Virus record (IMG/VR): IMGVR_UViG_3300047300_000852
Coordinates: 1-58,353 of that record
Strand: one strand, 5' to 3'
From: a virus
DNA length: 58,353 nucleotides
Of the stretch, positions 34,139 through 38,304 are shown one piece after another. A model generated the notes under the pieces. The model searched no databases and was not told the DNA's origin. It saw nothing but the letters and a program-made list of their open reading frames with translations. The position numbers were made by a program, and so were the translations under genes. The stretch's first letter is position 1, and each line of letters opens with the position of its first letter.

Positions 34139-36529
34139 TCAAGCATCCGATTCCGTCACCTCGTGCATACCATGCAAGGCATCCACTGATCGGCATAGCA
34201 GGCCCATACACGCTTCCAGGGAGTCCGGCCCGTCATCGTACTTGCCGTAGGGAAACTCTTTCATCTGGGCCAGTAGCAACTCATTCGAGGCTGACCTACG
34301 GAAACGAAGTAGCCTTCCGTCCAGCCACTTCCCGAGGCGCTCAATCCGCACGTTCTTGTTCACCGTCTGATTTACTAGGATAGGCGGGTCTGCGTTGTAT
34401 CCGATCTCATCGCATACCTGCCAGTAATCATCGGCCAACAAGTCCTGCCATGCGTTCGCCTCAAGTCCCACAAATGCCGTTTTCCGTTCGCGGTTCCACT
34501 GGACGTAATCCCGCACCATCTTCTGTACAGGCTTGCGGTCAATGTCCGAATCGACCCAGAACAACCCGTTCTTGTATCCGATCCAGGTCACTGCTTGATA
34601 GTCACCCTTCCGACTGTTCTTGCCCTTCGACGGGTCAAGCCATGCCGCAGAAATCAAGCAGTCTTTCGGATCAGGGAACTCATCGTCTTGCGCCCAAATG
34701 TTCGCGAAGTATTCTTCCGGCCATTCCGACATACTCGAACCCTTCGGACTACCCTGGTAGATCGAGTGCCACCAGTGTCCGGCCTGCCGCTTCCTTCTCT
34801 CCATCACTTCCGCAGGCCAGCGTTCCGGCCACAACGCTTCACCTTCTTGCCGCTGTAGCGGATCCTTCACCCCGTTCTCTTCTCGCAGGGCTTGAAGGGT
34901 GATCGACCGCACCCGGATATCCAGTTCCGCAGCTTTCGACTCTATCCGGCCTATGAGGTCATCCGAATGCCACTGGGTATTATGGGTCACCATGCCGTTT
35001 GCGATAAAGCTACCAGTATTCTCGACTTCGATATCGTAAACATCTTCATTACCAGCAGGCTCAATAAATACTATTCGTTCACTCGTGAACTCTGAGGTAT
35101 TCAACGAGTCGAGCGGCGGAGGCACTGGTTTCAATATATCCTGCCGCGATATTGCACTGTGTACATAATAATCCCCTGATCTTTCCGGTTTTATGACAGT
35201 GATCGACGCAGAAATTCTTTCGCTTGTGGCAATTCTCATCAGTCCGTTCTTCGAGGCAAACTGCGCATCTTCCTCCCTGAAATTCGAACATTCGCTTGTA
35301 GTCCTCTGCTCTAATTCGATACCTGTGCCACAAATGCGCGTTTCTGAATGTTTCTGGCGTGTGGCTAGGAGGTCTATGCCCGTCAATGGAACGCTTCTTT
35401 GTGTAGTGATTGTTGCAGTATCCCCTACATTTCGCTGGTTTATCGCATCCATCCCATTGGCAATTTTTTCCCTTCCACTTTCCGTGATACTCTGACTTGA
35501 CGTGCCTTCCTTCTCGGCGGTCTTTGTGATAGTGATACCGGCACTTTCCGAGGCAATACCCCTCTCGATCGCATCCCTCGACACCGCAAGATTTTGTTCT
35601 TTGCGGTATGTCACCATTTTCATTTCCGTACTTAAGTTTTTCAGCCTGACCCATTTCAATTCTCCGTTCGTCTCTACCAAAAACGGATGACGGGAATTAC
35701 CAACAATCGACTTGCCGGATTCAAGCATCACCCTAAAAACATCATCGCGCCCTACATTGGCATGATTAACGATACTAGAGTTTACGCACTTTCCGTTGTC
35801 AAACGATTTAACACCCTCACCCGGAGATAGGTCTTTTATTTGCTTAGTTGTTCCATCGGCCATAGAAACCATTGAGCTACCGGCTAGGCAACACAACAAA
35901 ACCAGCTTCCCGCCCGGCTCCAATCGCGTTGATGACGTGGAAACGAACCAATCCCACTGGTCATCGCGGACCTTTTGAGAGTACGCCGACTTCGCGTCCT
36001 TAAGGTAGTCGTCGATCACAAGAAGGTTTGCACCGAATCCCACGATCGACGTAGCCACACCAGCCGCGAGACACTCACCGCTTCGGTGCTCGAATCCCCA
36101 GTTCCTAACCGCTGACTTCTTCTGATCAACTCCATCGAGTCCCATCATCGGCGAAAGCTCGTGCACCTTATCCCGTACCCATCTTGAGTGACTGTTCGCT
36201 AGGGTCGATGTATTCGAGCAAATCATCACCCGTTTGTTCGGGTTTCTCAGCATGTACCAAGCCGGTGCCCATCGTGCCAAGTACTCCGATTTTCCATGGC
36301 GTACAGGGCACTTGATTATCAAGCAATCTAGGTTCGGATTCTCAAGTAGATTCCTGAACTCGAAATCGATTACCGCTAGGTGCTTCGCCCGTTTCCACTC
36401 GCCTTTGCTGAATCGCTCAGCCATCAGTAGCGGGGATCGCATCGCCATTGAATCGAAGTAGACTTGCTCGGCATCCTTGCGGCTCACCCAGTAGGGCCTG
36501 ATCTGATCCATCGCATCAAGCGTAGTCAT
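34139..36529 (-). CDS. terminase large subunit with in-frame intein
   Basis: 796-residue precursor. ATPase: Walker A CPVRHGKSEY (about 74-83), Walker B LLVIDDYLKD (about 169-178), coupling motif C-TQWHSDDL (interrupted). Nuclease: ISAAWLDPSKGK and FVGLEANAWQDLL, ending with DGPDSLEACMGLL. An intein occupies residues 214-517; the mature enzyme would have 492 residues with LVLLC joined to TQWHSDDL. It cuts concatemeric DNA and drives it into the head through the portal. Placed after a small-subunit candidate. Confidence 0.95.
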   Translation of the reverse strand: MTTLDAMDQIRPYWVSRKDAEQVYFDSMAMRSPLLMAERFSKGEWKRAKHLAVIDFEFRNLLENPNLDCLIIKCPVRHGKSEYLARWAPAWYMLRNPNKRVMICSNTSTLANSHSRWVRDKVHELSPMMGLDGVDQKKSAVRNWGFEHRSGECLAAGVATSIVGFGANLLVIDDYLKDAKSAYSQKVRDDQWDWFVSTSSTRLEPGGKLVLLCCLAGSSMVSMADGTTKQIKDLSPGEGVKSFDNGKCVNSSIVNHANVGRDDVFRVMLESGKSIVGNSRHPFLVETNGELKWVRLKNLSTEMKMVTYRKEQNLAVSRDAIERGIASESAGITITKTAEKEGTSSQSITESGREKIANGMDAINQRNVGDTATITTQRSVPLTGIDLLATRQKHSETRICGTGIELEQRTTSECSNFREEDAQFASKNGLMRIATSERISASITVIKPERSGDYYVHSAISRQDILKPVPPPLDSLNTSEFTSERIVFIEPAGNEDVYDIEVENTGSFIANGMVTHNTQWHSDDLIGRIESKAAELDIRVRSITLQALREENGVKDPLQRQEGEALWPERWPAEVMERRKRQAGHWWHSIYQGSPKGSSMSEWPEEYFANIWAQDDEFPDPKDCLISAAWLDPSKGKNSRKGDYQAVTWIGYKNGLFWVDSDIDRKPVQKMVRDYVQWNRERKTAFVGLEANAWQDLLADDYWQVCDEIGYNADPPILVNQTVNKNVRIERLGKWLDGRLLRFRRSASNELLLAQMKEFPYGKYDDGPDSLEACMGLLCRSVDALHGMHEVTESDA
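34979..35890 (-). other. intein coding segment in terminase
   Basis: The 304-residue insert starts CLAGSSMVSMADGTTKQI (Cys1, block A), has block B with GNSRHPFLV, and ends FIEPAGNEDVYDIEVENTG (block F) and NGMVTHN before Thr (block G, His-Asn). It interrupts the conserved coupling motif. About 78 N-terminal and 33 C-terminal residues form the splicing domain. The middle is a Ser/Thr-rich sequence that is the out-of-frame reading of the HNH gene, not an in-frame homing domain. Confidence 0.85.
35079..35654 (-). CDS. HNH endonuclease (endonuclease VII-type) nested in intein in another frame
   Basis: 191 residues on the same strand as terminase, in a different frame. The N-terminus has two zinc-finger-like repeats (CGVEGCDREGYCLGKCRYH, CQWDGCDKPAKCRGYCNNH). 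The C-terminus is a recombination endonuclease VII-type HNH (GGRCAVCLEERTDENC, FCVDHCHKTGKIRGLLCTQCN). GGAGA lies 6 nt before its ATG. It occupies exactly the slot of homing-endonuclease domains in ordinary inteins and probably mobilises the intein or itself. Confidence 0.85.
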   Translation of the reverse strand: MGQAEKLKYGNENGDIPQRTKSCGVEGCDREGYCLGKCRYHYHKDRREGRHVKSEYHGKWKGKNCQWDGCDKPAKCRGYCNNHYTKKRSIDGHRPPSHTPETFRNAHLWHRYRIRAEDYKRMFEFQGGRCAVCLEERTDENCHKRKNFCVDHCHKTGKIRGLLCTQCNIAAGYIETSASAARLVEYLRVHE

Positions 36530-37140: not shown

Positions 37141-38304
37141 CTAAGCCTTGACTGCTTTTCGCCCAGTCAGTTTTTCCCATCGAGCGATGATTACGTCACA
37201 GTATTTCGCATCGATCTCCATGCCGTAGCAACGCCTGTTGAGTTGTTCCGCTGCAATCAATGTTGTTCCTGATCCTAAAAATGGATCGTAAACCATTTCG
37301 CTTTGCATTCGTTCGAGACACCATACGAAAAGCTCAACAGGCTTTTTTGTTGGATGCTCAACATCTCGTGTCTTGCCTCGCTCTGACTGTTGATTGATAG
37401 ACTTGATGTAGCATCCTCTTCCGCCTTTTTGCCAAGCTAATTCGGCATCGGCAAGGAAACTCGTTCCGTCAGCGCTTCTCTTGTCCCATATCAACCACGA
37501 TCCAACAGGCAATGAAGATCCGTAGAGGTTCGCCCCCCACAAAATGACATTCTCAGCGAATAAAAGAGTACTCGCATCAAACTGTTGATTATCGCCCCTG
37601 ATTTCCGCGTACTGGCTACTGCAAGTTTTCACAGCCTTTTTAGTAAACCGCGTGTAATCACCGTTCCATTTTATTCCGTATGGTGGATCGGTCAGAACGC
37701 AATCAATTGTTGCCCCTGCAAGTAGCCGATCAACCTGTGACTGATCGCTTGAGTCACCACATAGTAACCTATGCTCTCCAAGTATCCACAAGTCACCAAC
37801 CTTGCAAACAGGCTCTGCGTCCTCAGGTACGCTGTCCAAGTCTGAATCACCGTCCGACTCCGGTTCCGGGTCGAAAATCTTCGCCGCTTCGCCTAACTCG
37901 GTGAACCAGTCTGCTAGCTCTTGGCTCGAAGTGTTGACCGTTCGCAGCAACTCTTCCAAGTCGCAAGCATCCACCTCAGCAAGCTCACTCGACGCATCAA
38001 GGATCAACAGCAGCTTGCGTTCGTCCTCCTCTGATAGATCGACGTACTCAACATCAACCAGCGTTTCATCACCAGCGCCGAGGGCTTGCATCACGCGTTC
38101 GTGACCGTCAACGATGTAGCCGGTTCGCTGGTTGACTATCACCGACTTGCAGAACCCTAGCTCCTCAATCGAGGCCGCTACCACTTCCCGCTGCTTCTGC
38201 GGGTGCCTTCGGTGGTTTCTTGGGTTCGCCAACAGTTGATCGGCTCGAACCTTATCGTGCCCGACGATACGGCTCTGCCACTTGTTCGGCTTATTCTTCG
38301 CCAT
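37141..38304 (-). CDS. ParB-domain DNA methyltransferase
   Basis: 387 residues: an N-terminal ParB/Srx-like domain (ADQLLANPRNHRRHPQKQ, IVDGHERVMQA) and a C-terminal beta-class amino-methyltransferase with DPPYGIKW (motif IV, about 215-222), HPTKKPVELF and YDPFLGSGTTLIAAEQ (motif I). Such fusions methylate adenine or cytosine N4 and may protect phage DNA from host restriction. It is preceded by palindrome A. Confidence 0.9.
   Translation of the reverse strand: MAKNKPNKWQSRIVGHDKVRADQLLANPRNHRRHPQKQREVVAASIEELGFCKSVIVNQRTGYIVDGHERVMQALGAGDETLVDVEYVDLSEEDERKLLLILDASSELAEVDACDLEELLRTVNTSSQELADWFTELGEAAKIFDPEPESDGDSDLDSVPEDAEPVCKVGDLWILGEHRLLCGDSSDQSQVDRLLAGATIDCVLTDPPYGIKWNGDYTRFTKKAVKTCSSQYAEIRGDNQQFDASTLLFAENVILWGANLYGSSLPVGSWLIWDKRSADGTSFLADAELAWQKGGRGCYIKSINQQSERGKTRDVEHPTKKPVELFVWCLERMQSEMVYDPFLGSGTTLIAAEQLNRRCYGMEIDAKYCDVIIARWEKLTGRKAVKA

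Follow-up and report, generated by a model that had tools for sequence, protein, structure and literature searches.

An HNH endonuclease gene nested out of frame in the terminase intein of a phage and its relatives

The usual picture of a homing intein is of a single polypeptide that combines two activities. In the virus record IMGVR_UViG_3300047300_000852 of IMG/VR (positions 1 to 58,353; this whole stretch of 58,353 nucleotides is referred to here as the window), the intein of a terminase gene and a complete endonuclease gene occupy the same DNA in different reading frames. The locus raises the question of whether such an overlap is an error, a passing stage or a stable way of encoding a homing intein and, if stable, how the two products would be made, maintained and spread.

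Intein and endonuclease gene in the terminase locus

The large terminase gene of the window is a single 796-aa ORF, which distinguishes it from a fractured gene with a split intein, and it contains an intein (Table 1) whose boundaries, VLLC/CLAGSS...GMVTHN/TQW at 35890 and 34979, are fixed by intein-free relatives reading VLLC/TQW. The residues that define a class-1 intein are in place (Cys1, block B His68, His303-Asn304 and a +1 Thr), and C1, H68 and N304 are invariant, and H303 nearly so, in a 47-row intein alignment. The predicted structure has a HINT fold that resembles the Ssp DnaB mini-intein (1mi8) with a TM score of 0.88 at 1.2 A in Foldseek, where Ssp DnaB and other mini-inteins were matched with TM scores of up to 0.89. 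An earlier note, made from the letters alone, had described a terminase split by a 304-residue intein with normal splicing motifs, and the boundaries, the Pfam and NCBIfam matches and the HINT model all agree with that description. Splicing of the window precursor may be expected by analogy with a homologue, the TerL6-f intein of phage Chandler, which was shown by Kelley et al. 2016 (PMC5050341) to splice in an MBP-intein-GFP reporter assay.

Nested within the intein is an HNH gene that begins 236 nt into it and is thus read in the +2 frame. Its product matches Endonuclease_7 (PF02945, 2e-18) and phrog_2914 (1.8e-26), and T4 endonuclease VII is matched both by the sequence (1.3e-5) and as the best solved structural match to the AlphaFold model (mean pLDDT 86; fold match 1e7l, probability 1.00). 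The core residues, comprising a Cys4 zinc site and the DH...N motif, identify the protein as a member of the PF02945 family and are invariant in the 47-row alignment; IDH variants of the catalytic motif exist. In members of full length, 13-33 codons separate the stop of HNH from the end of the intein. The proposal of a complete, out-of-frame endonuclease VII-type gene with its own ribosome site was accurate to the nucleotide and is borne out by the PF02945 match and the GGAG and ATG signals, and with the HNH gene complete within the open terminase ORF, the same DNA does code for two proteins, as had been claimed.

Table 1. Positions of the terminase, intein and nested HNH features in the window.
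Feature	Position	Strand	Evidence
Terminase large subunit precursor ORF, 796 aa	34139..36529	minus	open ORF; phrog_38 3.5e-65, phrog_4758 1.1e-33
N-extein	35891..36529	minus	part of terminase precursor ORF
C-extein	34139..34978	minus	part of terminase precursor ORF
Class-1 intein, 304 aa	34979..35890	minus	Pfam Intein_splicing PF14890 6.7e-14; NCBIfam intein_Cterm TIGR01443 2.3e-7
N-terminal splicing (HINT) part, about residues 1-97	35600..35890	minus	AlphaFold pLDDT 83-98 per 10-residue block, residues 1-100
Intein-frame filler, predicted to be disordered (about residues 98-267), in the usual homing-endonuclease slot	35090..35599	minus	pLDDT mostly <50, residues 100-253
C-terminal splicing part, about residues 268-304 (blocks F, G)	34979..35089	minus	TIGR01443 2.3e-7; pLDDT 96-98
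HNH/endonuclease VII gene, 191 aa, +2 frame relative to intein	35079..35654	minus	ATG to TGA ORF; PF02945, phrog_2914, T4 endonuclease VII
GGAG Shine-Dalgarno-like site, 7 nt before HNH start	35662..35665	minus	family conservation
HNH start codon ATG, overlapping intein Trp80 codon (TGG 35651-35653)	35652..35654	minus	RTG conserved in family
Endonuclease VII core (Cys130/133/164/167, Asp151-His152, Asn168)	35091..35330	minus	Pfam match residues 109-188
TGA ending the HNH gene, shortly before intein block F	35079..35081	minus	

Elsewhere in the window, an ORF adjoining the terminase genes (37141-38304) encodes, judged by translation only, a putative ParB-like domain followed by a DNA methylase. 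The 12-bp palindrome GGAAACGTTTCC recurs across the whole 58 kb, from 1852 to 57815, at 25 sites with at most one mismatch (21 exact) against 0.2 expected, and it looks like a putative operator- or stoperator-like element or another genome-wide binding site.

Conservation of the nested arrangement and of its putative internal start

Profile-guided searches, covering viral contigs and a single genome for each bacterial species, recovered 172 loci with the nested arrangement, 110 of them non-redundant at 95% nucleotide identity. The HNH gene is in the +2 frame inside one open terminase ORF at 172 of the 173 loci having N-splicing, C-splicing and HNH parts; the loci that break the pattern (L129/L267 and L272) are three loci on two contigs, one with an indel and one with an ambiguous base N. 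With HNH in +2 in all 172, these are not canonical inteins in which the endonuclease is an in-frame domain. All family inteins are inserted before the same T-x-W motif at the terminase C-motif site. The relative L001, from another metagenome, shares the intein site, intein length, HNH length and frame of the window, and tblastn found the nested HNH again in +2 in cluster B mycobacteriophages and Gordonia phages. Phages of Mycobacterium and of Gordonia carry it, as do environmental viruses and the genomes of bacteria from several phyla; the labels of the bacterial contigs are Anaerolineae, Bradyrhizobium, Mycolicibacterium, Sulfuritalea, Nonomuraea, Endozoicomonas, Eremiobacterota and Geobacteraceae. 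For the more distantly related HNH sequences of bacterial genomes (L206-L218), no intein context of this kind was seen. Conservation in over a hundred diverse phages and prophages indicates, at the level of sequence comparison, that the two-layer arrangement is a stable design and not an accident.

The start of the HNH frame is tied to the splicing domain itself. In all 109 usable members, an RTG codon (90 ATG, 19 GTG) overlaps the conserved Trp codon of the intein, whose TG it uses; its first base, A or G in every case, is the final base of the preceding codon. Where the preceding amino acid allowed a pyrimidine, its codon nevertheless ended in a purine (24/24 members; log10 P = -7.6). GGAG is found upstream of the start in 65 of 109 members, compared with 4% at control positions, and its spacing is exactly 7 nt in 57 of those 65. 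In about 80% of members, the HNH frame stays open for at least 4 codons ahead of the start, while in 20 of 109 a stop lies within 3 codons upstream, directly abutting in 12, which excludes a long frameshift fusion in those members. The conserved start codon, the Shine-Dalgarno site and the upstream stops together favour internal initiation as the best-supported mechanism by which the nuclease would be made, and conservation of the start signals also upholds the earlier view that its synthesis would not require splicing.

The intein frame across the nuclease gene has a different character. In 81 pairs of members at 70-93% identity, 75% of amino acids agree when the DNA is read in the HNH frame and 52% when it is read in that of the filler, and substitution rates at HNH codon positions 1, 2 and 3 in the same pairs are 0.21, 0.13 and 0.41, respectively, as in ordinary coding sequence; by these comparisons, the HNH frame is under purifying selection. 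The open filler of about 190 codons in the earlier note does extend over the full length of HNH, but the truly unstructured part is predicted to cover only about residues 98-267. Confident HINT parts with near-total disorder between them suggest that the nuclease-coding DNA encodes an unstructured linker in the terminase frame, predicted to be disordered and functionless in the excised intein. The Ser/Thr-rich composition of the filler was also correctly noted, at 21.3%, but is nothing special, as permuted HNH codons give 20.6%; the filler is rich in these residues because HNH codons read that way in the intein frame. A functional Ser/Thr-rich linker was rejected on this codon-permutation expectation and on low amino acid conservation.

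Selection on the filler appears to act only to keep it open. In the window taken by itself, an open intein frame is no more than a mild surprise (synonymous-codon resampling, P about 0.02-0.10) and weakly opposes a chance origin, which is rejected by the family-wide count of 0 intein-frame stops inside HNH against 161.5 expected (109 members, synonymous permutation). Over 69 clusters at 70% amino acid identity, the product of the stop-avoidance P values reaches log10 P = -69, the combined values being nominal only because the members are phylogenetically dependent. Membership required both splicing parts in one ORF; only error-like contigs failed that requirement, and ascertainment therefore does not explain the zero stops.

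Mobility, decay and competing explanations

Intein-free terminases are common, and occupied and empty alleles exist at one site, as expected of a homing intein. The intein-free terminase L012 is 97% identical to that of the intein-bearing L001, and the relative nearest to the window among those without the intein, L002, reaches 84% identity, above the 80% of L001, the nearest carrier. Horizontal movement is evident from L148 and L177, which share 40% extein identity yet 90% identity in the splicing domains and 90% in HNH, a contrast indicating that intein and HNH travel together. That the window intein is itself mobile we infer from the family, L001 being the only close carrier in the collections.

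Nine distinct mini-inteins were found at the C-motif site. Most still have the RTG start, and in these an in-frame deletion has fused the initial zinc-finger residues of HNH to its last helix. Several mini-inteins, as the retained sequences show, derive from a nested-HNH intein that lost its nuclease through internal deletion. The remnants set the polarity from nested-HNH intein to mini-intein, opposite to that of an intermediate on the way to an in-frame intein, and the empty alleles, joint transfer and remnant-bearing mini-inteins indicate homing followed by decay. A natural deletion series is available at the site in L221, L222, L225, L226 and L229-L235, in which the start codon is kept and HNH stubs mostly so.

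We consider it highly probable that the terminase message is read twice, yielding a splicing intein and a separately started homing HNH nuclease, and that, as part of this explanation, the intein of the window belongs to class 1, is mobile and occupies the C-motif site in the large subunit of a phage terminase. Ribosomes in the terminase frame would produce the precursor, from which the HINT halves would splice an active terminase, the intein with its disordered linker being discarded, while other ribosomes would start internally at the conserved GGAG/RTG and release a free HNH nuclease. Terminase alleles that lack the intein would be cut by the nuclease where the intein inserts, and their repair would copy intein and nuclease together, consistent with the allele pattern and the transfer observed. 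As the nuclease decays, in-frame deletions leave the mini-inteins with start codon and HNH stubs that are seen at the site. The nested HNH is, on present sequence comparisons, probably the enzyme that spreads the intein.

The HNH family also takes in non-homing nucleases, such as T4 endonuclease VII, and the nested protein might instead serve the phage as a packaging-associated HNH nuclease or a junction resolvase, with the intein context incidental. T4 endonuclease VII, its best structural match, is a resolvase, and HNH proteins beside terminases help packaging in many tailed phages (PMC12613952, citing Kala 2014). We regard such a role as unlikely, given that no HNH of this family was found near the terminases of intein-free relatives, in flanks of up to 12 kb, that HNH and splicing domains move jointly between terminases of only about 40% identity, and that the terminase persists where HNH has been deleted from a mini-intein. 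Programmed ribosomal frameshifting from the N-part of the intein, giving an intein-HNH fusion in place of a free protein, could exploit the open HNH frame upstream of the start in most members, but is very improbable in view of the close upstream stops in others and the conserved start and Shine-Dalgarno site.

The earlier note had suggested an intermediate or alternative route for assembling a homing intein, of which the second term fits. A gene within a gene, without fusion, could be read as a passing stage on the way to an in-frame homing intein, a reading to which we assign hardly any probability: the arrangement is identical in the 110 non-redundant members from distant hosts and unchanged across the 69 clusters, family searches found no in-frame homing endonuclease, HNH included, at the same terminase site, and the derived forms are deletions and not fusions. 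A sequencing or assembly frameshift that hid an HNH truly in frame with the intein, the outcome that the note had named as its own refutation, is excluded for practical purposes because independent metagenomic contigs and named phage genomes share the identical +2 phasing. The comparison with same-site inteins of related phages proposed there returned the same nested +2 arrangement, together with empty alleles and mini-inteins. Double reading of one message, with an internal start for the nuclease, is the explanation we retain.

Relation to described elements and meaning

The window intein groups with TerL6-f of cluster B3/B4 mycobacteriophages (Chandler gp6, Phlyer gp6), with which it shares the terminase C-motif site, homologous splicing domains and a nested +2 HNH, at 26% intein identity. 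The Chandler terminase intein contains a nested HNH match; the passages of PMC5050341 searched make no mention of a nested HNH for TerL6-f, and the GenBank features of TerL6-f phages list only terminase or intein.

Of the arrangements already described, the nearest is the ShiLan domain (PMC11855218), where a methylase insertion with neither splicing domains nor a ribosome site holds an HNH out of frame. Like the window, the ShiLan insertion (JN020143) carries HNH in another frame (+2 by our own translation) within an open host frame and shows a patchy, homing-like spread. Unlike the window, it is neither intein nor intron, and its HNH is unmatched by the family HMM. The window thus resembles ShiLan in its out-of-frame gene and open host frame but falls outside that class, having splicing domains and an HNH unrelated by HMM. 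For overlapping reading frames in actinobacteriophages, PMC11855218 cites Gorbalenya 1998 ('Non-canonical inteins') and a preprint by Gosselin et al. 2025 (10.1101/2025.01.02.630785) on actinobacteriophage inteins with 'non-canonical architecture', and these works may describe the present arrangement. New here are the breadth of the family, its constant +2 phase, a start codon built on the Trp codon, the avoidance of stops, the transfer as a unit and the decay series, although actinophage cases may have been described earlier.

In canonical HEN-bearing inteins, the nuclease likewise lies between blocks B and F of the HINT domain, but there it is an in-frame domain released by splicing, whereas in the window it is a separate gene in another frame. 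Dassa et al. are said to have described, in 2009, fractured genes with split inteins and a free-standing endonuclease. As in the window, the endonuclease of such genes is its own ORF alongside the intein halves; in contrast, the host gene and intein of the window stay one ORF, fully overlapped by the endonuclease.

Other inteins were encountered among the collected loci. In Vibrio phage vB_VmeM-32 (L037, 67530-72847), a uvsX/RecA-like gene is in separate ORFs with a SegG-like endonuclease ORF between the intein halves, which looks like a fractured-gene arrangement. In the terminase relatives L009 and L011 (4990-7480 in each), the P-loop site, following PVRHGK, is occupied by another intein, which has in-frame LAGLIDADG-like motifs, and L019 (4990-6900) carries a mini-intein at this P-loop site. 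An unannotated 137-aa mini-intein is present in the large terminase of Acinetobacter phage vB_AbaM_ME3 (L036, locus 2501-2911), where the C-flank TGKTMA places it at the P-loop.

These inteins may form a distinct and ancient homing class, undescribed as such, that encodes splicing element and nuclease as two overlapping genes, each with its own start, where the start codon of one is drawn from an invariant splicing-domain codon of the other, and the hosts are terminases of phages of many bacterial phyla; we propose this tentatively, at slightly less than even chances. In-frame annotation misses such homing nucleases, as the records examined list only the terminase or the intein and not the nested HNH. 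The carrier phages of Mycobacterium and Gordonia are grown in laboratory strains, which makes the mechanism directly testable. The family provides about 70 lineages in which two genes overlap over a full length, with one informative frame and one merely kept open, decay dead ends included. With the nuclease outside the frame of the host protein, its dose could be set independently of that of the terminase, and a nuclease in its own frame need not fold inside the intein and could be lost without breaking an essential gene.
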